Shown one piece after another: positions 14,023-51,474 of a stretch of 64,000 nt of DNA. A program made the translations under genes and the position numbers. This DNA comes from Synechococcus sp. M16CYN (GTDB lineage Bacteria > Cyanobacteriota > Cyanobacteriia > PCC-6307 > Cyanobiaceae): assembly GCF_040371545.1 (NCBI RefSeq), contig NZ_AP029048.1, forward strand, positions 62,001-126,000. The letters are read 5' to 3'. Under the pieces are notes generated by a model. The model was given only the letters and a program-made list of their open reading frames with translations. It ran no database searches and had not been told where the DNA came from. Within the stretch, counting starts at the first letter, position 1, and each line of letters opens with the position of its first letter.

Positions 14023-14595
14023 AGGCCTGCGATTGCGAGTTCTCTCATCTTTGTCCATCGCAACATAAATGGCGCTATGAATTCCGTCTAACCGCCTCTG
14101 ATCAGCGTCCGTGAACGTTTACTTTGACTGCACAGCAATCAAACTCCATTGGAATTAGTGAATGTGCGGTAGGTACAAAAATTGGTATTACCAGCTTCCT
14201 GTGAGAGGCATCGCATCTTGTCCATACAAGGCGCGATGCCAAAACGCTACATCATTGATGCGGATGAATTAAATCTGCAAGAGTCGGCGCTCTAGTGCAA
14301 CAGCCTTGCATCCCAGTCAATTTGATCTCGACCCAAACCTAATAATTAAAGTACTGAAATAGCGCAATATACTCATCCAATCCTGTATCTCATCGAGACG
14401 AACTCCAGACACTTTTCCTGTGTACAGCTCACTTTGACTAGCGCCCGGATCGCGAGTTGTAAACCTTCCTAAGCCTGCGGCTAATGATACGATCCATCAA
14501 TAACGAATTGATTACGCCAACTAGCTACGGAGCACACATGCGGACCTATCTGAGTAGGACAGGCTGCTTGCTAGTTAGTAACTTGGAAGCGAGAT
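14023..14595. other. Gene-less spacer between trpB and the DUF3352 gene (573 bases)
   Basis: From memory, picocyanobacteria often carry a small rhodanese-like gene between DUF3352 and trpB. I looked for it on the minus strand: only a short piece reading SGVRLDEIQDWM (about 14360-14410) faintly resembles such a start, and nothing follows it in frame. It also holds the hairpin at 14207-14240. An open frame at 14484-14747 runs antisense into trpB and is rejected. Confidence 0.4.
14207..14240. terminator. Hairpin downstream of trpB
   Basis: Bases 14207-14214 (GGCATCGC) pair with 14233-14240 (GCGATGCC); inside, CTTGT and ACAAG can pair around CCAT, giving a long, nearly continuous stem. It lies about 355 bases past the trpB stop on the minus strand and 185 bases upstream of the DUF3352 start. 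It could be a terminator or a structured 5' leader of the DUF3352 transcript. Confidence 0.4.
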
Positions 14596-15852
14596 TCAGA
14601 GTTTCTCTCCGAGCCTTTCTACGACTGTATTCACGTCCTTGTCTCCACGACCAGAACAGTTTATTACAACTTCACAACCCTTCTGAAGAGTGGGACACAG
14701 TTGGTCTAACCATGCAAACGCGTGGGCCGTCTCCAACGCAGGAATAATGCCCTCCAGTGCACTAACTAGACACAGAGCATCAAGAGCCTGCTGATCGGTC
14801 ACCGCTACATACTCTGCGCGGCCAATTTCACGTAAATAACTGTGTTCTGGCCCAACACCAGGGTAATCGAGACCTGCACTAATGGAGTGTGCTTCTTGCA
14901 CCTGGCCGTCGCTGTCTTGCAGCAGTAGGCTCATGGCACCATGCAGAACACCAGCGCGACCTTGTGTAATGGTGGCAGCGTGACGAGGTGTATCTATACC
15001 ATCGCCAGCAGCCTCAACCCCGATCAGACGAATGGCTGTGTCTTGAACAAAATCATGGAATAGGCCCATAGCATTAGATCCACCACCGACACAGGCCATC
15101 AGCACGTCAGGCATACGACCAAAAGCCTCACGACACTGCTGCTTGGTCTCCTGTCCAATCACAGCATGGAAGTCGCGCACCAGCATGGGATACGGATGTG
15201 GGCCAGCAACAGAGCCCAGAATGTAGTGGGTGGTTTCTACGTTAGTGACCCAATCGCGAATCGCCTCACTAACTGCTTCTTTTAGGGTAGCTGAGCCCGT
15301 GGTCACCGGTTGCACCGTCGCGCCGAGTAAGCGCATGCGAAATACGTTAAGCGCCTGACGATTCATATCTTCGGCACCCATATAAATCATGCACCTAAGG
15401 CCGAAGCGTGCACAGACTGTTGCCGTGGCCACACCGTGCTGTCCAGCCCCAGTTTCGGCAATGATCCGCTTTTTACCCATTCGGAGAGCCAGGAGTGCTT
15501 GGCCGAGAGCATTGTTGATCTTATGAGCGCCAGTGTGGTTTAAGTCTTCACGCTTTAGCCAAATGCGCGGGCCTCCATCAGCGCGACGATAGTGGGCTGT
15601 TAGCCGCTCGGCTTCATACAGCGGTGTTGCACGACCCACATAGGTCTTAAGGAGCCGATTCAGTTCATCTGTAAAAGCAGGATCATTCCAAGCTTGCGTC
15701 GCAGCTCGCTCTAATTCAACTAGAGCTGGCATCAGGGTTTCTGGCACGTACTGACCACCGAAACGGCCGAAGCGACCATGAGCAGCGGGTCGCATCGTTG
15801 GCTGAAGGCTGGCGGGATCCAGGTGGATAGCGTTCGGCAAAGTGCTGGCCAC
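14596..15852 (-). CDS. trpB: Tryptophan synthase beta chain
   Basis: PLP enzyme that joins indole with serine to make tryptophan, working with TrpA in the cytoplasm. The PLP lysine is in [13 protein letters not shown] (Lys111), the substrate loop [12 protein letters not shown] follows, and the phosphate-binding loop GGGSNAMG is near 240. At 418 residues it is a standard TrpB1 with a short N-terminal extension before [15 protein letters not shown]. The start is GTG at 15852. It is not in an operon with other trp genes, as is usual in cyanobacteria. The roughly 1-kb region upstream is empty. Confidence 0.97.
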
Positions 15853-16128
15853 AGATCCAGTTAGTTCAAAGCGCTAGGCCAGCGTAAACAGGCAGTTAGG
15901 TGATGACATAGGCAATCAACCTAAAGCTCGGGTTATGAAATCTCGGTCGTTTAAGAGTAATTACTAGAAACTTAAAGCAAAATGCCGTCCAACTTAGGGC
16001 CTAATATTCTCAAGTAGCGCAGGCGTACGGGGACACCTTGAAGCTGCAATGTCGGTAAACTAAAGTTGTTGTTACCAAAATCCTAATCAATTACGTAGCA
16101 ACAATCGGGCTATTTACGCTAACACTGC

Positions 16129-16260
16129 ATGGGTAGTTTCTCAAGGCGATTCACTACAGGCGATCCAGAGACTGGTCACATTGATCACATTCGCGTTCAG
16201 ACCCGTGTCCTTTGCGACTATGTAGTGTTATTCCGCCACGAAACCCAAAGCATTGGATAA
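16129..16260 (+). CDS. Possible 43-residue small protein
   Basis: ATG at 16129 opens 43 codons ending in TAA at 16260. The product is charged and begins MGSFSRRFTTGDPETGHI, with IRVQTRVL near residue 21. I do not recognise it and see no ribosome-binding site. It may be a chance frame, a real small protein, or the eroded end of a lost gene; the length fits chance well. No membrane segment or motif is visible. Confidence 0.15.
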   Translation: MGSFSRRFTTGDPETGHIDHIRVQTRVLCDYVVLFRHETQSIG

Positions 16261-16820
16261 CTTTGGCACACTGTGGGGGAAATGTGTTGACTTGATAGCA
16301 TCGAAATGTCAGTCGCTATGGCTGTTCGACCGAAATATCAGAAACCTTCGCTCGCAGATAGCAGCTAAGAGTCGGCTTATTCAACGGTTATGAAACTGAA
16401 GCTACGCAACAATCAAGACCGCGTAAGCCTCTCCTTTGCACCAAGAGAATCTGGCGACTCGGCGTAGGCCTCAACAGCAACGCTATTGCAACTGGTGTTA
16501 CTGCATCCAGCCATCCGGATGCCCAATTGTTGCACTCGGAAAGGTAACATTAGTTACGATTGGGCTCAAATTGGGCTCAAGCTAAAATAGTATCATATTG
16601 AGTATGATCATCTGGGCATTCTCTCAACCGAGGTTGGTTCAGCAGCGGAGTTAACCTCAAGAACTCGACGCCTAATGTAGAGTTGACCTATTCAGCGAGG
16701 GTTTATATAGGGTCGGCTTTTTGCTGCGATTTACCCTTAGGGAGGGCTGGATCTAATTAGGGGCGAAACGCTGTCGAAAAAACAGCTAAGAACGACGCAA
16801 TTAAACCTTAAGGAGTGGTT

Positions 16821-16868
16821 GTGCAAACCAAACTTTGGTTCTGCTTCCCTGGAAGGGCTATCGGCTGA
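16821..16868 (+). other. Possible 15-codon leader ORF upstream of cysC
   Basis: A good Shine-Dalgarno-like TAAGGAG (16809-16815) stands five bases before GTG 16821, opening MQTKLWFCFPGRAIG and a TGA at 16868, 51 bases before the cysC ATG. It overlaps a small palindrome (AACCAAACTTTGGTT). It may be a leader peptide or simply the scar of a lost upstream gene. Confidence 0.2.
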
Positions 16869-16919
16869 AATGCGTTGGTAACCGGTTTGAGTGACAATGG
16901 TCGCCTTTTCCCACCGATT

Positions 16920-17540
16920 ATGAACTCATTTACCCCCCAGGTCGCTAACATTACCTGGCATGAAGCTTCGGTAGACCGAGTAGCCAGAGCGGACAAGCGT
17001 GGGCACCGCAGCGCCATTCTTTGGTTCACTGGACTTTCTGGATCCGGCAAAAGCACCCTGGCCAATGCAGTGAATGCGACTCTGTTTAAGCGAGGATTGG
17101 CTAGCTATGTACTGGACGGTGACAATATGCGCCATGGTCTCTGCAAAGATTTAGGTTTTTCTGGCGCTGACAGAGAAGAAAATATCCGACGCATCGGCGA
17201 AGTAGCAAAGTTATTTCTCGATGCAGGCATCATCGTTCTCACCGCTTTTATATCTCCGTTTCGCGCTGATCGCAACAAAGTTAAAGCCCTAGTCGAAGCA
17301 GATGATTTCCTCGAGATCTATTGCGCGGCTGATCTGAACGTTTGTGAAGTTCGAGACCCCAAAGGCCTCTATGCTAAAGCCCGGTCTGGTGTTATTAAAG
17401 AGTTCACGGGTATTTCCAGCCCCTACGAGGCACCTGAAGCCCCCACTCTGAAGATTGATACTGGCGTCCAGGAATTGTCTGTATCGGTCAGTAGAGTAAT
17501 CAGAATCCTTCAGGACAGGAAAGTGATTCCGTCAATGTAA
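16920..17540 (+). CDS. cysC: Adenylyl-sulfate kinase (APS kinase)
   Basis: Phosphorylates adenosine 5'-phosphosulfate to PAPS with ATP, in sulfate assimilation. The P-loop GLSGSGKST is at residues 38-46, LDGDNMRHGL (APS site) at about 62-71 and the lid region SPFRADRNKV near 114. At 206 residues it is normal for a single-domain CysC. The frame is open from 16875, but the ATG at 16920 gives the family N-terminus (NITWHEASVDR), so it is chosen. It is convergent with the dead AI-2E gene, which ends 10 bases beyond its stop. The upstream kilobase is empty, so it now appears to be a single-gene transcript. Confidence 0.95.
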   Translation: MNSFTPQVANITWHEASVDRVARADKRGHRSAILWFTGLSGSGKSTLANAVNATLFKRGLASYVLDGDNMRHGLCKDLGFSGADREENIRRIGEVAKLFLDAGIIVLTAFISPFRADRNKVKALVEADDFLEIYCAADLNVCEVRDPKGLYAKARSGVIKEFTGISSPYEAPEAPTLKIDTGVQELSVSVSRVIRILQDRKVIPSM

Positions 17541-17549
17541 TGTCAGTAC

Positions 17550-18585
17550 TTAATTACCTGTTGCATCGGCCAGTGTTTTAATGTAATCGACGGTCGACAC
17601 TGCAAAGAGAAGACTCAACAATTCTCCAAAGCCGGGTGGGCTAGCAAGCCCAGCTCCAATTGGCAAAAAAATTGAGCGGTCAGGCCGGTTACAGCCCAAC
17701 GATCCTACCCATAAGTCTAGGTTGAATCACCTGATCCACAATCTGGCCTACTACAACAGCAGCGATCAAGAGCTTTAGTCCAATTCGGAGATCTTGGACT
17801 GCTAAAGCGGCGTTTACAAACATGATGGTGAGAGTACTGGCATATGGGATCAACATGGTGAAGCCGATCAATACGGCAAACAGCACGTCGTAGGGGATAT
17901 CTAGACTGGCAAACACCAGTAGCTGCCTACCGCAGAGGATAAAGGCAAGTAACACTTGACCGGCAAAGTAGCCGCGAAAGGTTCGGTCAAAAGTTCTCAT
18001 GACCAGAGCCTGCCGACGCTCCGGTAGCTATCGGATCAAATCCGCGGTGATTGGCTCAGCTCCCAGCAATAGGAACACTGCCAACGCCAACACGATTACC
18101 ATATCGATGGCGATGCTCACCGTAGCGCCCAAAATACCCAGCAAACGCTGACTCAATTGGGTAGCTACCCAACCCACCTGGGTGGCTAAATCACTGCTGA
18201 AACCAACAAAATCCGTAGGAAGGCCATAGGAAGTAGCCCAGGCTTGGGCTTGATTGATCCCCTGCTCAGCGGCCGTTAGCAACGATGGTCCTGTACTAAT
18301 CAATTGACTGAGCTGCACAATCAATAACGGCAGCAGTTCGACTGCCGCTAGCGCTAGTAGGCCTGCCGTGAGCAGCACCACTACGGTAATCGCTAGCAGT
18401 CATGTCAACCCAAGCCTTATTAGTCAGCGACAGGGAAGATCCAAGAGGAATGCGATTAATGCGGCCGTCACAAACAGCCCCGGAAATGGGGCGAACTGCA
18501 CCAAGATTCGTTTAAGGACAAAAACATTTAACCCGAATAAAGGCAGCACCAAGCTAAGGTGGAATCAGCTAGGCCAAGCCTTCAT
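17550..18585 (-). pseudogene. Degraded AI-2E family permease gene
   Basis: The minus strand from ATG 18585 reads through one AI-2E/PerM-type membrane protein but with in-frame stops at codons 7 (18567-18565), 54 (18426-18424) and 62 (18402-18400), at 18030-18028 and at 17691-17689. A frameshift follows, after which the C-terminus continues as GELLSLLFAVSTVDYIKTLADATGN to a stop at 17552-17550. Surviving family text includes LLPLLIVQLSQL, FRGYFAGQVLL, LIGFTMLIPYAS and IQPRLMGRIVGL. The whole trace is about 345 codons, the normal length, so this is a full gene killed by point mutations rather than a truncation. The intact protein exports small molecules across the inner membrane; its substrate in cyanobacteria is unknown. 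Confidence 0.9.
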
Positions 18586-19198
18586 TTAGTGGAACCTTCT
18601 GAGATTGAAGCTTGGGATACTTCGGCCATGTGTTAACACCAAAGACCAAAGCAAGTAGCCATTTCCAGCAACTCAGCGGCTCTTGAAGCAAAGGTGAGAT
18701 AGCTTTGTAAAACATCAATCACAATTAAAACGTTGATCAGCATCAGGGAAAACATGGAAGAATTGTAATCAAACCGTTGCGAAAAACCGTGGGATTACTA
18801 AATAATAGCCCCTAGCACCGCGCAGTTGAGGTAAAGGATAGGCCTCGTTAGAAGTAATAGTTATGGACAAGAAATATATTGTCGCAGCACGACCACGGTA
18901 AAAAACCACCTCCGCAATAACTAAACTTCTATCATCCTTTGATAAGATCCTTGGATTCGATCTAATTCGGCAGTAGATCCAGTTTCGTTAATAGTGTTAC
19001 CTATAGCAAAGAGTTGACCTTGAGACACACCCTGGGTTCAACGGAGCCTCGTAGACTTGAGCAGGGTTCTTGACCATGAATCAGAACCAATTTCTTCAGT
19101 CAAATTTCACTACAAAATAATGTTGTTAAAAAATAGTGGTAAGTACTATCGCCCGTCACGAAGTTAGTAAGGGTAAGAGTGTGGTACTGAGCATCGCG
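18586..19198. other. Gene-less spacer between the AI-2E pseudogene and purE (613 bases)
   Basis: No open frame, hairpin with a T-tail or RNA-like fold was recognised. It is AT-rich and lies downstream of purE (minus strand) and upstream of the dead gene, so it probably includes the dead gene's promoter remains. Confidence 0.45.
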
Positions 19199-19762
19199 CT
19201 AACTCATTTGCTCGAGATAAGTACTGCTACCTAAGTCAAGCAAGCGAGCATCTTTTGCCACTACTACATCATGTAAGCTGTTGCGATAATCCGTTAAGCG
19301 CTGAGCCAAGGAATTATCGGAAGTGGCCAGGATCTGAGCGGCGAGTAGCCCGGCGTTAAGGCCTCCATTAATGGCCACCGTGGCGACGGGAATGCCGCCA
19401 GGCATTTGCACAATCGAGTAAAGCGAGTCCATGCCAGATAATGCTCGGCTCTGCACTGGCACTCCAATCACGGGAAGAGTGGTGAGGGCTGCCATCATTC
19501 CGGGAAGATGAGCGGCACCACCGGCGCCGGCCACGATTGCACGATGTCCTCGCCGACGTGCCTGCTGAGCGAACGCCACCATTTCCAGAGGGGTGCGATG
19601 GGCGGATAACACTCGCACCTCTACTACAACCCCTAGCTGTCGCAAGATCGCTGCTGCTGGCTCCATCATTGGCAGATCAGAATCACTGCCCATCACCACG
19701 GCAACGCGGGCAGAAAGAGAGGATACTGTCACAATGTGCTCCGACAGGACTGCCATCGTCAC
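19199..19762 (-). CDS. purE: 5-(carboxyamino)imidazole ribonucleotide mutase (PurE class I)
   Basis: Moves the carboxyl group of N5-CAIR to C4 in purine synthesis. The active-site text VAVVMGSDSDLPMME (about residues 20-34), VLSAHRTP and AGAGGAAHLPGM is all present, with LSGMDSLYSIVQMPGG following. At about 187 residues it carries a short N-terminal extension; the first two ATG codons (19762 and 19756) are both possible. It is divergent from nagA with only 28 bases between likely starts, so the two genes share a very compact promoter region. Downstream is the 613-base empty stretch. Confidence 0.95.
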   Translation of the reverse strand: MTMAVLSEHIVTVSSLSARVAVVMGSDSDLPMMEPAAAILRQLGVVVEVRVLSAHRTPLEMVAFAQQARRRGHRAIVAGAGGAAHLPGMMAALTTLPVIGVPVQSRALSGMDSLYSIVQMPGGIPVATVAINGGLNAGLLAAQILATSDNSLAQRLTDYRNSLHDVVVAKDARLLDLGSSTYLEQMS

Positions 19763-29775: not shown

Positions 29776-30743
29776 CACAACGCTCCCGCCCAGACCATCT
29801 CCGGATCGTCGGAGAATAGGGGTCCCGTCGGACACCACCCTGGAGCCAAACCCGGAGCTGTTGGCGTGGGTCCATCACACTGAAGGGCGGCCAAATGGTG
29901 TAGCCAACGGCGGCCAATGCCAGTTTCAAAAGCCGTACTCACCATTCGATAAGGAACCTGATTCTGGAGCTCCTGTAACAGCGGCCGTGGATCTCCGTCG
30001 ACTACCGGACGCCGCACCTGCCAACCCATCCAGCTATCCCGAAGTTCGGGCCTATACTCAAGTGATTCGTCCAACGCTACTGGACCAAGCCGAGCTAACT
30101 GCTCAAGACCCGCATGGTCATTCACTGCTAACGGCTGTTCTAACCAATCGAAACGTGGCTCCTGCCTCAGGGCCTTCATCCAAGACTCAGCGGTGGAGCG
30201 ATCCCAACCACCGTTGGCATCTAGCCGAAGCCTGGCGTTGCTGGGCAAACGGTCTAAAAGCTGCCTCAACCATTGCTGTTCAAGCGCGGCCGGTTCAGTT
30301 GCTACTTTCCATTTAAGCGTCAACACCTGTGAAGAAGAGGTCTGATCTAGAACGCGGTCAACGGCCATGAGCATCTGCTCCCCTGCCGGTAGGAGCTGAG
30401 CAGAATTAGGTGCGGCTTTCCAACTCTGTGAAGCATCACCTCCAACGACCCCATCGAGCTCCGCCAATGCCGCACCACACCCAAAGCCGATCGCACCGGG
30501 TCCTTCAATGATCAGCCCCGCAAACTGAGACAAGGAGAGTCGATTCGGGAGGGCTAACAATAATCCACGGCAAAGAGTCCATTGCTCAGCTTGTAATGGC
30601 GCCACCTCACCCCAACCGACCATACCGTTGTCGTCTTGCACGCGCAGTAACCAGCCACGGCGTTCCGAGAAAACACCAGCTGCTGTTCGTAACGACTGCA
30701 TTAGTGCGAAGCGAAAAGAACGAACTTGGAGTCGCAACATCAT
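29775..30743 (-). CDS. menC: o-Succinylbenzoate synthase (MenC)
   Basis: Enolase-superfamily dehydratase converting SHCHC to o-succinylbenzoate. The catalytic set is complete: the Lys pair in LTLKWKV (about residue 140), metal ligands in LRLDANGGW, DWLEQPL and VALDESL, spaced as in the family. At about 322 residues it is normal. The ATG at 30743 overlaps the menA stop in an ATGA junction; a second ATG follows directly at 30740. Its stop overlaps the menE start by one base. Together these mark a tightly coupled menA-menC-menE operon. Confidence 0.93.
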   Translation of the reverse strand: MMLRLQVRSFRFALMQSLRTAAGVFSERRGWLLRVQDDNGMVGWGEVAPLQAEQWTLCRGLLLALPNRLSLSQFAGLIIEGPGAIGFGCGAALAELDGVVGGDASQSWKAAPNSAQLLPAGEQMLMAVDRVLDQTSSSQVLTLKWKVATEPAALEQQWLRQLLDRLPSNARLRLDANGGWDRSTAESWMKALRQEPRFDWLEQPLAVNDHAGLEQLARLGPVALDESLEYRPELRDSWMGWQVRRPVVDGDPRPLLQELQNQVPYRMVSTAFETGIGRRWLHHLAALQCDGPTPTAPGLAPGWCPTGPLFSDDPEMVWAGAL

Positions 30744-31684
30744 CTCACCGGCAAGCATGCTCCCAGTGCCAAACCAACGGCAAGACCCAAGCCATTCCAG
30801 GCTTGAAAACGTAGTGCCAAAAACTTGCTGAGACCGATGCGTGTGGGCTGATTATGGTAGCGCTGCAGCAAACGAATCAAGGCGCAGCCAGCTGGCAAGC
30901 CCAGGCCGCTGAGCAGGGCTGTAAGGGGCCAATGGCCCTGTAGCACAGGAAGCCATTCAATTAGCAGGGTAAGGGTTACAAACCATGGAACCAGAGCTGA
31001 GGCTCGCGCGGTTCCCAGGCGCACCACAGGTGAACGCTTGTCATGGGCAATATCCTCTTCTACTTGATGAAAATGAGAGCAAAAAAGCACCAGCGTTGTG
31101 GCCAAGGCCGGACCGGACCCCAACAGTAACGCTTGGTCCCATGGAACCACCCCCGTCCCCACCGGCGCTAGCACCAACAAAGCTGCTGCAGTTGCAACAG
31201 GGCCGAACGCCAACCAGCAAAGTGGTTCACCAAGCCCCCGGTAGCCGAGACGAAACGGCGGACCCTGATATACATAACCCAAGCCGCAACTGAGCAGCAC
31301 TAGCATCAGTACCACAGGATTACTTGACCAAGCTAGCCAAGCCACTAACACCAGGCCAAGCAGCAAGGCTACAGACGACAGCAACGCAATGCAATCTCGG
31401 CGACCTGTGAGATTCACCACCGAGTGGGGTTTACCAATCGCGTCCACTCCGGTTGCGGAATCAAATAGATCATTGCTGAGGTTCTCCCATATCAATAAAA
31501 GAATTGCGGCCAGCAGGAAACCCAACATTTGATTCCAGCGCAACGTTCCTTGAAAGCCAAGCCACCATCCTGCGGCCAAAAGCACTGGCATCACAGCGAC
31601 CGAGTACATTGGCCACTTGATCGCAGCTTTCCACAACGCCCTCCGTTGGGCGTAACAGGATGCGACAACCTGTGGCTCTTGCAT
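30740..31684 (-). CDS. menA: 2-Carboxy-1,4-naphthoquinone phytyltransferase (MenA)
   Basis: Membrane prenyltransferase that attaches the phytyl chain to DHNA, giving the phylloquinone ring of photosystem I. The Asp-rich motif WENLSNDLFDSATGVD (about residues 65-80) is the first diphosphate-binding site, and HQVEEDIAHDKRS (near 200) contains the second. Eight or nine membrane helices; about 314 residues. The frame is open to 31723, but ATG 31684 gives the family-like start before ALWKAAIKWPMYSV. It is divergent from menF with 71 bases between starts, so one control region may serve both arms of the pathway. Confidence 0.93.
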   Translation of the reverse strand: MQEPQVVASCYAQRRALWKAAIKWPMYSVAVMPVLLAAGWWLGFQGTLRWNQMLGFLLAAILLLIWENLSNDLFDSATGVDAIGKPHSVVNLTGRRDCIALLSSVALLLGLVLVAWLAWSSNPVVLMLVLLSCGLGYVYQGPPFRLGYRGLGEPLCWLAFGPVATAAALLVLAPVGTGVVPWDQALLLGSGPALATTLVLFCSHFHQVEEDIAHDKRSPVVRLGTARASALVPWFVTLTLLIEWLPVLQGHWPLTALLSGLGLPAGCALIRLLQRYHNQPTRIGLSKFLALRFQAWNGLGLAVGLALGACLPVR

Positions 31685-46038: not shown

Positions 46039-46542
46039 ATGCACCGGCTATTGTCAGTCAGTCGCCAATACCTTCGACGAAATCTACAGTTGCTTCGGGA
46101 GCAAGAAGGAACTCCTGGCCGGCGTGCTCGGGGTATCGCAGCAGGGGTACTCTGCGGGTGCCTCCCTTTTTTTGGGTTGCAGGTTGTCCTGAGTATGAGT
46201 GTGGCAGGATTGATAAGAGGCAACTACCTATTAGCTGCTGCAGGAACACTGATTAGCAATCCCTTCACCTATGTGCCGCTATACTGGCTTAACTATCAGG
46301 TGGGGTGTAGCTTACTTGGGCCCAGCAGCTTGAGTACACCAAGCAGAATCACTCATACCGATATCTGGGTGCAAGGTTGGGATTTTTCCCAGCGGATCCT
46401 GTTGGGCTCAGGCCTAGTCGGTCTCGTTTGTTCGGCCATCGGCGGCGTTCTTGCCTATAAACTGTTTCGGCGTCACGAAATGCATCAGTCACGACGACGA
46501 GGCGCGGTATCCAACCCGAGCGTGACGAAAGTGAGCTGTTAA
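46039..46542 (+). CDS. DUF2062 domain-containing membrane protein
   Basis: A 167-residue membrane protein. RARGIAAGVLCGCLPFFGLQ (29-48), then GNYLLAAAGTLISNPFTYVPLYWLNY (62-87) are the DUF2062 signature, with three or four membrane helices in total. Function unknown; often near mnmE and rel in this group. Start ATG 46039; an earlier ATG at 46031 is out of frame. It is followed by the largest empty stretch of the window. Confidence 0.88.
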   Translation: MHRLLSVSRQYLRRNLQLLREQEGTPGRRARGIAAGVLCGCLPFFGLQVVLSMSVAGLIRGNYLLAAAGTLISNPFTYVPLYWLNYQVGCSLLGPSSLSTPSRITHTDIWVQGWDFSQRILLGSGLVGLVCSAIGGVLAYKLFRRHEMHQSRRRGAVSNPSVTKVSC

Positions 46543-49134
46543 GGACTGAGTCGATCAGTTGATTTCTAAAGGCCCCTATTCCATTGATGCAGATCTTCTC
46601 TCTTAGCAATACCAACGAGGCGTCGCTTTAGCCACTAGATATCTGCTAATCCTTTCGTGTGCCTCAGTGGGTGCTGAGTTTACGTATCTACGCATCTGTA
46701 CCAAAGGAAATGAAAAATGGCTCCACTACCTCGGCCTAGTCTCTCGGTGTCCAAACGGTATAACGGAAACTGCAAAGGGGTAGATACGCTTTGCTAGATA
46801 AACCTCAAGAGTCGTAAAGCTCAGTTAATCATCACCGGCATCGGTAATGTCGCTGACTTTAATATCCCAGCCTGAGTTCTGATCCTCACAAATCTCAGCT
46901 AAGTGGTTAGAGTGATTTTTTCATCCAGCCAATTGCCGACTAGCGTCCACAGGTACATAATCTACGTCTAATTTAAGTAAGCTACTATAAAACCAGTGTA
47001 CTAACTACCCGAGGACTTATTCCCGCGATAAAGATAGAGGATGTTCCTTGCTAGTTTCGCTAAAAAATAATGCCTGGTTTATGATGAAGTTAAATCAATG
47101 TGAGGCCTTGAAAGCAATCATCTCCTAAACACTGCTTTAATGAGAAGTTAGCTATATACGATCATCACCTAAAAAGCTTATTGAATAAGTTCGTTTAAAA
47201 TCGGAATTTCAGAGAGCAATCTGTGGAGCGATGTTAAACCATTGCGGGAGGAAGCGAACGCTATTACTAAAGAAGTAGAAGTATTTAGATAAAAGTGTTA
47301 GTTGAGTCAGATTCAAATACTTTACTCAAGCACTTAACTCTAAGCGATCTAGACCTTAAAAAGAATTACGATAGAAAACTGTTCAGTCCTGCAGCGATCC
47401 TGAATTAAGCAGATTCCGTTGATTAAAAACTACGACTGCCTAAATTCTAGCTGGATTAGGATTCAGAGAGTGAAAATATATGGGATGAATTTATTTTGGT
47501 TATTGTTCCACTTTTTAGTTATCCATGACTCTTGTAGCAAAAAACATTTTTAAACTCAAGAATTACTGGCAACAGTCGCTTAAGTCTGAGAGTGATATCA
47601 AGAATCACACGCATCCCAAGACGTTGCGAAAAGACCACTATCAATATGCAGTTTAATATCAATAAAATCAGCAAAGTCTATCAGTTGGTTAGGCTCACAA
47701 ACCAATAATCCGTAGTTTCCACTACAGAAAATCTGAGTACAAGTAACCACATCAGTGGACATTAAAAATATCTTTGGCTGAGAAACAAACGCAAAATAAT
47801 TGTCACTTATATCTCAGTAATACAGGGAAGATTACTATGCTTCAGCTACATCCATGATCTGCAAGGCTCGGATAAGGTCCTCGAGACGCTAAAACAGAAA
47901 CCAAAATTCACATGAAACCAAACTCCTATACCTAGTAGTAGAGGTGCATAGGCACCCACCTGCAAGAATTCAGTTCGATGTATCTAATAACTGCGATTTG
48001 AATTTCTTTCCTTGCTATCTCGAACAACTCAATGCTGGAAGCCGTTGTCCCAAGACGACTGGCCAAGTAGTTATCGACAACCAGATTATTAATAATCCTG
48101 AGACCATGAGCAAACTCAAGAGTACCTTGAGTTCAGTATATTGCAAGACATGAATCTCTAAGTAAGCGAAACGTCGTCCCTACAATTTCAGATATCCAAG
48201 TTTATTACTCTTTGTTCTAAGGGTGGCGAAATTCTGGAAACCAGCATACTTAATTAGATAAAGTAAGGAAAATCAATTAGGAACAGTGACGACTTTTTAT
48301 CTTTGTTGCACACTAAGCTCACCTGCTTAAATACAACTAACAGATCTTGCTGAGGTTATTCTACTTAAACAGATCTATCAGTTTCCTGACTCACACTTGA
48401 CGATAGTGACACTTATTCGCTTTACAAGCGTTAGAAATTACTTACATCGTTCCTTAAACCCTGAAACAAGAAACATTTCTTGATCATGAACACTGAGTAG
48501 AACCTTACCCACATACTTATCGAGAGGAGGTACCCGGATTAATTCGGCACGGTAGTCCACAACCCTTGTCAATGTTACGAGGCTATGCCATTTAGAGATC
48601 GTTAGCGCATTGATCTTGAATCTGTCAGTACAAGAGGATTGCTTGTGAGAAGAGGATCGATTACGGTGAAAGCAATAGTAATCACATAAAATCAGTAGCG
48701 CCGATACTCGTAAATAACATTAGGCACCTTTACGCTCGAGTAAAAAGTGACAAACAGAGATTGCCCATAAAGTCATATTTAAGCTTTGGCGTGGCACAAC
48801 GTCACAGCCCACACGAAACTCATAACCTTTATGGCATCATCACACGGCTAGGACTACAACATCAAGTCGCGGCACAGAGTCGCCAACCGCCGATCATGTT
48901 GACTATGGGGAAGTTACTGACCCATAGATTTGTGTTGTGTAATTAAAAGGTTCATGAATCCGACAACCGGGGCTCACCTACCTCTAGGAGGAAATTGCAC
49001 CCTCTCCACTTATTAGATGGAGCGTTTTATGATGTCGAAACTCTAAATGTTAAGGATCACCTGTCTACAACTCAAGAAACCTGATTAGGGCGGGACAACT
49101 CGGATTTACAGCCTTGACTCTGTCTGCTTTGCCT
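46543..49134. other. 2.6-kb gene-less region between the DUF2062 gene and rel
   Basis: The longest stretch without a recognisable gene. Only two open frames above 60 codons occur (47944-48153 and 48761-48946, both plus), fewer than random sequence of this length might give, and neither has family text or a ribosome-binding site. Visibly AT-rich between about 46900 and 48700. No tRNA arms, T-tailed hairpins, direct repeats or CRISPR-like spacing was found. It could be an eroded gene block, an unrecognised ncRNA or simply non-functional. Confidence 0.5.
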
Positions 49135-51474
49135 TTATGGCCCTCCCTGACCAATGCGTGCAACACCAATAACATCTGCCATCGAGCGAATTTGAGCCAT
49201 AGTTCGGCTCAGCTGATCGGCACTCTGCAACTCTACTTGCAGACTGATACGAGCTGGTCGACCAGCAGCTGTCTTTACGCGCGCGTCACTAACGTTGATT
49301 GCACCATCCGAAAGACGCATGAGGATGTCCTTCAGGATGCCAACACGATCAATCGTTTCAATGCGCAACTGCACTGAAAAATTTTGGCGCTTGCCGTTGA
49401 GCCTAGGATTCCACCGTACCGGTAGACGCCGTTCCCGAGGGATTGACTCCACATTGCAGCAATCCTGACGGTGAATCGTGACGCCATGATTACCGAGAGC
49501 AACGGTGCCAACAATGGTTTCTCCTGGCAACGGACTACAGCAACCACCCAAGCGGTAATCGAGTCCTTCAATTCCAAGTATCGTCCCCTCTTCACTGTGC
49601 TGGAATTGAACTGAATCCTTTGGCACCATTAATGCACGGGCCACCTTTTCGCTGCTAGTTGGCTCTTCCTCCTGTTGCTGTGTCTGAAGCCTGATTTCCT
49701 CACGGAAACGGTTAAGAACCTGTTGCAAGGTCACTGCACCAAATCCAAGCGAAGCCAACAAATCTTCTGTAGTCACAACATTGCAGCGATGTGCTACGCG
49801 CATCATGATTTCGCCATTCAACAAAACATCAAATCCATCTCGACCCAATTCCCGCTCCAATAGGTTTTTACCTCTCTCAATCGTTTCATCCCGATGGCTA
49901 CGCTTGTACCACTGGCGAATGCGATTCCGTGCCGTTGGCGTCGCAACGAAATTGAGCCAGTCGAGGCTGGGATGGGCGGTTTTACTAGTGAGAACCTGAA
50001 CGAAGTCACCGTTTTGTAGTGGTGTCGCCAAAGGGCATAAGCGGTCGTTAATGCGAACACCGTGGCAATGATGACCAACCTCGGAATGAATACGATAAGC
50101 GAAGTCAACAGCCGTCGCTCCTTTGAGCAGACCCACCACATCACCTTTTGGTGTGAATACAAACACTTCTTCATCGAAGAGATCTTCTTTGATCGAAGAG
50201 AGGTAGTCGTTGTGATCATCATTGCCCCCCTCCTGCTGCCAATCTATGAGCTGTCGCAACCAATTGAATCGTTCGGAATCACTACTGCAAGTTGCGGGTG
50301 AACCTCCCTCTTTGTATTTCCAGTGAGCTGCGATACCGAACTCAGCGATCTGATGCATCTCCAAAGTTCTAATTTGCACTTCAATCGGCCGGTGACGACC
50401 AATGACGGCCGTGTGTAACGACTGGTACCCATTCGGCTTCGGTAAACCAATGTAGTCCTTGAATCTTCCAGGAATCGGGCGAAAAGTGTCGTGCACCACA
50501 GCCAATGCGCGGTAACACGTTTCAACGCTAGGCGTGATAATGCGAAGGGCAGCCACGTCGTAAATCTCGTGGAATGCCTTCTGTTGGCGTTTCATCTTAC
50601 TCCAGATGCCGTACAGGTGTTTGGGTCGCCCACTTACCTCACACCCCTCTAAAGCAACCCGCTGAAGCCGCTCATTGAGTAAGTCAACTGTGACCGCCAA
50701 TCGCTGCTCACGCTCACTGCGTTTAGTTGCCACCTCATGCTGAATCTCCCGGAACGCCTCCGGCTCTAACAGCTTGAATGCCAAGTCTTCAAGTTCCCAC
50801 TTAAACCGTCCGATCCCAAGACGGTTAGCTAAGGGAGCGTAAATCTCTCGTGTTTCCCGAGCAATTCGCTGACGTTTCTCTTCCTTCAAAGCGCCAATGG
50901 TGCGCATATTGTGTACTCGGTCCGCCAGCTTCACCAACACAACGCGGATATCACTAGCCATCGCCATGAACATTCGCCGCAAATTCTCGGCCTGCGCTTC
51001 CGTGCGATCGTTAAAATGAATGCCGCCTAACTTAGTAACTCCCTCTACCAGCTTGCGCACTTCTAACCCGAAATGTTGTTGTATCTCTTCAAGAGTGACA
51101 TCGGTATCTTCTACCACATCGTGAAGGAAGCCCGCTGCGATGACCGGAGCACTGGCGCCTATGTCACGTAGCAGATCAGCCACAGCAACAGGATGAACTA
51201 TGTATGGATCTCCGCTAGCGCGGAACTGACCCTCGTGTAGTTGAAAACCAAAATCGAATGCCGATACCAGCAAAATTTCCGGATCGGTCGGACAGTTTTG
51301 GTCGGTTCCTGGGTGCACATTGGCAATGCATTGCCGCAACCATTCAGGCAAGGCAATCTGATAATCGTCGAGATGCCGAATCGGACGCTGCCCAAATCCC
51401 AGCAAACCGCGCGCCATCAGAGCTGAGCTGAATTTGTCTCTTTCTTCATCCGGTATTGAGGCGGCATTACTCAT
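49135..51474 (-). CDS. Bifunctional (p)ppGpp synthetase/hydrolase (Rel/SpoT)
   Basis: Makes and breaks the stringent-response alarmone (p)ppGpp. Order of domains: HD hydrolase (AAGFLHDVVEDT near 120, ending around 200), synthetase (VSGRPKHLYGIWSKM and GRFKDYIGLPKPNGYQSLH, about 285-380), TGS (EEVFVFTPKGDVVGL, about 440-500), zinc-finger-like helical part (DYRLGGCCSPLPGE) and ACT (RIETIDRVGILKDIL, last 80 residues). An intact HD site plus the RFKD motif typical of bifunctional Rel indicates both activities. At 779 residues it is complete. ATG 51474 is chosen over 51495. Divergent from the ABC gene with 65 bases between. Confidence 0.95.
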   Translation of the reverse strand: MSNAASIPDEERDKFSSALMARGLLGFGQRPIRHLDDYQIALPEWLRQCIANVHPGTDQNCPTDPEILLVSAFDFGFQLHEGQFRASGDPYIVHPVAVADLLRDIGASAPVIAAGFLHDVVEDTDVTLEEIQQHFGLEVRKLVEGVTKLGGIHFNDRTEAQAENLRRMFMAMASDIRVVLVKLADRVHNMRTIGALKEEKRQRIARETREIYAPLANRLGIGRFKWELEDLAFKLLEPEAFREIQHEVATKRSEREQRLAVTVDLLNERLQRVALEGCEVSGRPKHLYGIWSKMKRQQKAFHEIYDVAALRIITPSVETCYRALAVVHDTFRPIPGRFKDYIGLPKPNGYQSLHTAVIGRHRPIEVQIRTLEMHQIAEFGIAAHWKYKEGGSPATCSSDSERFNWLRQLIDWQQEGGNDDHNDYLSSIKEDLFDEEVFVFTPKGDVVGLLKGATAVDFAYRIHSEVGHHCHGVRINDRLCPLATPLQNGDFVQVLTSKTAHPSLDWLNFVATPTARNRIRQWYKRSHRDETIERGKNLLERELGRDGFDVLLNGEIMMRVAHRCNVVTTEDLLASLGFGAVTLQQVLNRFREEIRLQTQQQEEEPTSSEKVARALMVPKDSVQFQHSEEGTILGIEGLDYRLGGCCSPLPGETIVGTVALGNHGVTIHRQDCCNVESIPRERRLPVRWNPRLNGKRQNFSVQLRIETIDRVGILKDILMRLSDGAINVSDARVKTAAGRPARISLQVELQSADQLSRTMAQIRSMADVIGVARIGQGGP

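Follow-up and report, generated by a model that had tools for sequence, protein, structure and literature searches.

A PF01594 membrane-protein gene decayed in place between cysC and purE in Synechococcus sp. M16CYN

What became of the membrane-protein gene whose broken remains lie between cysC and purE in Synechococcus sp. M16CYN, and did it belong there in the first place? We addressed this question in a 64,000-nt stretch of the genome (the window, to which all positions refer), using further genomes of the genus for comparison (labels G001-G045; G000 is the genome under study). Our analysis confirmed that 17500-18585 holds a PF01594 membrane-protein pseudogene that is full-length and in place, with disabling lesions here and an intact gene at the same locus in relatives. 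We put the probability that an ancestral chromosomal gene of this family decayed in place, once it was no longer needed, at about 0.96. The pseudogene comprises the following features.

17500..18585, minus strand: PF01594 (AI-2E/UPF0118 family) membrane-protein pseudogene, from protein match, Pfam and nucleotide alignment to four intact orthologues
18585-18583, minus strand: ATG start, retained
18565..18567, minus strand: stop 1, TGA, codon 7, Trp in relatives
18424..18426, minus strand: stop 2, TGA, codon 54, Trp in relatives
18400..18402, minus strand: stop 3, TGA, codon 62, Arg in relatives
18028..18030, minus strand: stop 4, TAG, codon 186, Trp in relatives
17689..17691, minus strand: stop 5, TAA, codon 299, Gln in relatives
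17680..17682, minus strand: stop 6, TGA, codon 302, Trp in relatives
17668..17676, minus strand: 1-bp insertion causing a frameshift, aligned at 17674 beside a T run (nucleotide alignment)
17546..17547, minus strand: 7-bp deletion between 17547 and 17546 (nucleotide alignment)
17502-17500, minus strand: ancestral stop TGA, inside the 3' end of cysC

The read-through translation shares 73% identity with an intact 363-amino-acid (aa) orthologue over 298 codons (E = 2.7e-125; 72-73% to the 363-aa gene of G006 and G014) and matches PF01594, AI-2E_transport, at 8.2e-36 and 124.2 bits (curated cut-off, 34.3). Taken alone, a 103-aa fragment scores 67.8 bits, over the cut-off, and a 117-aa fragment 31.7 bits, slightly under it. 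In the nucleotide alignment to the four orthologues, the 298 codons from the ATG at 18585 are free of gaps, and all segments are collinear with a single protein. The six in-frame stops comprise four TGA, one TAG and one TAA, four of the six at Trp positions of the relatives. The two indels together restore the ancestral frame, which brings the TGA at 17502-17500 back into frame.

A preliminary description, prepared from the letters of the stretch alone, had proposed a full-length AI-2E permease pseudogene with at least five stops, and this is borne out. The five stops it listed (codons 7, 54 and 62, 18030-18028 and 17691-17689) are all placed correctly; the sixth, at 17682-17680, had been overlooked. 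The frameshift it reported before the C-terminus corresponds to the 1-bp insertion, but the 7-bp deletion was missed. Of the extent it gave, 17550-18585, the start stands, while the 3' end really lies at 17500, so that the last 50 bp were left out. The translated comparison with AI-2E orthologues of relatives that it advised yielded the intact gene cited above, and the segments proved to lie in order on one protein and not to derive from different ones.

Could the gene still be functional, with its stops read as amino acids? Three of the four TGA codons (7, 54 and 302) stand at Trp positions, as recoding of TGA would have it, but the fourth stands where relatives have Arg, and the stops also include a TAG and a TAA. 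Recoding would also leave the frameshifts in place, and a change from TGG to TGA or TAG takes only a single step. Furthermore, among 37 full-length matches in the window to open reading frames (ORFs) of relatives, 29 have no internal stop, and 11 of these 29 genes are terminated by TGA. We therefore regard recoding of TGA or of another stop as having a practically negligible chance of being correct.

The gene might also be intact if whole-genome amplification or assembly had introduced the stops as errors. The assembly consists of 1,940,073 and 17,326 bp, and the small contig has exact long internal repeats. CregCyn, which lives as a cyanobiont with the dinoflagellate Citharistes regius, is described as having a 1.94-Mb chromosome and a ~17-kb plasmid with duplicated genes (PMC11150560), and from this match we infer that M16CYN and CregCyn are the same. 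According to the same source, the CregCyn genome was assembled from amplified DNA of a host cell, and such DNA may contain errors. However, a single gene here has six stops and two indels and shows a raised nonsynonymous rate, while 29 of the 37 matches are without internal stop. The other eight of the 37 matches do contain internal stops; some are other pseudogenes, and in some the stops fall only at the ORF end. Nor can a few read errors explain substitutions all along the AI-2E gene. An artefact is thus very improbable.

If the gene is broken, when was it released from selection? The preliminary description had suggested dating the loss by substitutions relative to intact orthologues; this was done with a codon model (our own script, nine taxa, with some control genes absent from some taxa). 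The ratio of nonsynonymous to synonymous substitution rates (dN/dS) of the AI-2E gene is 0.161 on the branch leading to the present genome, compared with 0.056 elsewhere in the tree (twice the log-likelihood difference, 2 dlnL, 10.1), which indicates relaxed selection, albeit in a model with near-saturated synonymous sites. Neutrality (dN/dS of 1) over the full length of the branch is rejected as well (2 dlnL 13.6). Because the branch value is raised and neutrality along the entire branch is rejected, the gene was first constrained and later free of constraint. For eight intact control genes, dN/dS on the same branch is 0.016-0.132, and the ratio of branch to background is 0.63-2.18, as against 2.9 for the AI-2E gene. 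In a two-phase model, in which a functional period is followed by a neutral one with stops allowed, the neutral final fraction is 0.16 of the branch (~0.34 neutral substitutions per codon), with values from about 0.07 to 0.40 lying within 1.92 log units. Thus, the loss is fairly recent, falling in roughly the last 16% (about 7-40%) of the branch that began when this lineage diverged from its nearest relatives.

Several observations weigh against this account of relaxed constraint and its date. Near-saturation of synonymous sites and third positions on this branch makes the dating rough. The highest controls come near the pseudogene: nagA has 0.128 (background 0.167) and DUF3352 0.132 (background 0.118; G007 and G002 each have one in-frame stop in the matched stretch, and these codons were set to missing). 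The cysC control also departs from its background, with a 2 dlnL of 4.3, the only control above 3.84. Codons 1-100 show no excess of second-position differences from G006 (0.07, compared with 0.07 in G007 and 0.14 in G008). Finally, the 298 indel-free codons leave part of the wreck gene-like, which we attribute to the recency of its death.

The same gene-like character raises the question of whether the 103-aa and 117-aa open frames still work as part-transporters. A codon-position bias persists relative to the G006 orthologue, with differences of 0.225, 0.121 and 0.597 at positions 1, 2 and 3. Yet the most conserved third of the gene has ~2-4 times the second-position divergence seen in functional relatives: for codons 201-298 the difference from G006 is 0.112 in the wreck, compared with 0.031 in G007 and 0.051 in G008, functional orthologues from more distant relatives. 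Codons 101-200 show 0.18, compared with 0.08 and 0.11. This pattern fits recent death, and we see only a slim chance that the fragments are still at work. Most likely the wreck has no product at all at present; translation from the old start would yield six codons before the first stop.

The next question is whether the gene was native to this locus, which is bounded by two intact genes and contains a second relic.

16875..17540, plus strand: cysC (APS kinase), intact, downstream neighbour
18586..19198, minus strand: relic of a 211-aa membrane-protein-like gene, which in the nearest relatives separates the AI-2E gene from purE
19199..19762, minus strand: purE, intact, upstream gene of the ancestral run of purE, 211-aa gene and AI-2E gene

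The pseudogene and cysC overlap tail to tail by 41 bp, and the 3' end of the wreck may persist as sequence partly through this overlap. The order cysC, AI-2E gene, purE, nagA was found in 18 of 18 genus loci, which had been fetched for carrying the gene (G013 and G022 were left out, their matches being cut at contig ends). An AI-2E match was present in 20 of 23 genomes of a first genus set, the exceptions being G012, G015 and G016, and in 30 of 34 genomes of a larger set that includes the present one; here G045 also lacked a match, and all four are 77-83% complete. A wider survey covered the best 80 of 546 named purE loci (loci, not genomes). In 62 of these 80, some of them cut by contig ends, an AI-2E gene follows purE on the same strand, at most ~1.7 kb downstream. 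All of the remaining 18 carry Prochlorococcus labels, although one of them, L120, ends 386 bases past purE and is too short to judge. Two Prochlorococcus loci, L077 and L079, retain the purE-linked gene.

Might the wreck nevertheless have come from elsewhere, as an import or a duplicate, and died after insertion at this locus? The genome does contain another PF01594 gene. Against this, the neighbours are identical in all 18 fetched loci, the purE-linked orthologue is the closest relative at 73%, and the gene tree agrees with those of eight neighbouring genes in placing the sequence beside a clade of G006, G014, G004 and G043. We take G006 and G014 to be clade IV-like, presumably strains CC9902 and BL107. 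G006 shows an overlap with cysC of the same 41 bp, and phage records contain no match to the AI-2E gene at E 1e-5. A genome-wide PF01594 search returned only the paralogue and no intact purE-linked copy elsewhere. Import or duplication accordingly has very little to recommend it. Because an intact orthologue occupies the same locus in relatives, the wreck is explained by in-place decay of an ancestral gene; the preliminary description had favoured this over import and had given the place between cysC and purE as fitting the group, and both points held. A search of the window against Rfam at the gathering threshold returned nothing.

Was the AI-2E gene the only casualty of this gene run? The region immediately upstream, 18586-19198, had gone unnoticed in the preliminary description. 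Two fragments, 18600-18839 and 18824-18931, match the 211-aa gene weakly (E 2.6e-5 and 4.6e-6) and have stops inside, and a full-length nucleotide alignment of 18586-19198 to this gene gives 330/607 identical positions (54%), whereas 20 shuffles average 41% and reach at most 44%. At E 0.01, the 211-aa protein of G006 matches neither a Pfam nor an NCBIfam family. In G006, G014 and G043, the 211-aa gene directly adjoins purE on one side and the AI-2E gene on the other, an arrangement suggestive of a single operon. With the traces in the present genome included, 24 of 34 genus genomes have relatives of the 211-aa gene. Its decay here has clearly gone further than that of the AI-2E gene, so the 211-aa gene probably died first.

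The rest of the window shows that the AI-2E gene is one loss among many, since other losses surround it. In the corresponding stretch G006 and G014 share 55 conserved ORFs; a mechanical script scored 35 of them as intact in the window, 9 as broken and 11 as missing. In this count purE is falsely scored as broken because the G006 ORF begins further upstream, and the "intact" G006:2009599-2010549 rests on a 29% match with a paralogue located at another place in the window. In G006, trpB is flanked by HrcA and a SUI1/YciH-like gene, neither of which has a counterpart in the window (their places would be 14058-14599 and 15861-16905). The ~1-kb gap between trpB and cysC contains no recognisable genes. 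SelO, another G006 gene, is likewise unmatched in the window, and a ~2.6-kb gap lies at its place, 46494-49150. At 29781-31124 and 31389-31652 there are matches to G006 ORFs of 481 and 88 aa, with three and two internal stops, respectively; these are probably further pseudogenes.

Losses within the PF01594 family extend beyond the window. Each of the 18 other genus genomes that are at least 90% complete has three PF01594 matches, none with internal stops. The present genome has one intact gene (G000:C1:1366587-1367597) and the wreck. This surviving paralogue is intact at L148:2572-3642, where L148 is G000:C1:1364001-1371000. Its tandem partner, present in G006, gave no match of its own, either in the 7 kb around the survivor or genome-wide.

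What the protein did is a separate matter from how it was lost. The family was re-named once Escherichia coli YdgG had been identified as an exporter of autoinducer 2 (AI-2) (PMC7221264). LuxS (PF02664), the AI-2 source expected alongside a TqsA-like exporter, was found in 0 of 34 genus genomes, compared with 5 of 14 control genomes, a result that covers the LuxS route only. Because LuxS was not found in these genus genomes, export of self-made AI-2 is unlikely, and "AI-2 exporter" would be only a family label. PMC7221264 also describes a signature for UPF0118 Na+(Li+)/H+ antiporters, namely D251 in motif C and R292, R293 and E296 in motif D, with the consensus sequences DFiPIiGSI and IRRTVEPKVMG. 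The intact orthologue has STLIPYASAL and VDQVIQPRLMG instead, and the signature residues were not seen in these two motifs, as compared by eye with the printed consensus. No solved structure matches the intact orthologue at E 0.01.

What, then, drove the loss? The most likely cause would be relaxed selection together with drift in a symbiont that lives with a dinoflagellate and has undergone genome reduction, given the match to CregCyn. The two nearest relatives assembled in one contig have genomes of 2,234,828 and 2,285,034 bp. CregCyn is reported to be sister to Synechococcus clade IV, and the same paper reports a protein repertoire a quarter to a third below that of related free-living strains, with transporters the most-lost category (PMC11150560). 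The wreck is a case of ordinary reductive evolution. As to the sequence of events, purE would have been kept, with the 211-aa middle gene likely lost first and the AI-2E gene later. A more specific scheme is a staged collapse, in which the middle gene, now almost unreadable, went first, the AI-2E gene followed in the last 7-40% of the branch, purE was kept, and, with the tandem PF01594 partner lost as well, three such transporters were reduced to one. On the other side, the AI-2E gene of G004 is open though the middle gene there is damaged. The 211-aa gene is also unmatched in, for example, G007, G017, G020, G023, G040 and G044, and in fragments in G001 as in G004, and the AI-2E gene is kept; loss of the middle gene alone therefore need not kill the AI-2E gene. 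We consider the odds of the staged scheme to be about even. If it is true, the surviving paralogue would represent the one PF01594 function that the symbiont still requires in the host chamber.

The locus provides one roughly dated case of transporter loss in a dinoflagellate-associated cyanobacterium, with wrecks of two ages adjacent in one gene run, and suggests that genome erosion is still under way here. It also calls for caution in taking the AI-2E label in marine Synechococcus as evidence of quorum-sensing export, in view of the LuxS result. The words pseudogene and autoinducer are absent from the main text of PMC11150560, where the AI-2E relic is thus undescribed, and a literature search joining AI-2E, Synechococcus and pseudogene found no papers in the library searched.

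Three known systems can be set beside this locus. Gene loss has been described for the dinoflagellate cyanobionts CregCyn and OmCyn (PMC11150560), and the present assembly matches CregCyn. The purE-linked PF01594 gene of marine Synechococcus, such as the 363-aa gene of G006 and G014, has its locus and frame plan in common with the wreck, down to the cysC overlap in G006, but it is intact, whereas the present copy is broken by six stops and two indels and its constraint is relaxed. In many Prochlorococcus (18 of the 80 named loci) the same purE-linked gene has also been lost, but cleanly: tblastn at E 1e-4 found no remnant beside purE in the loci without the gene, in contrast to the visible wreck here.
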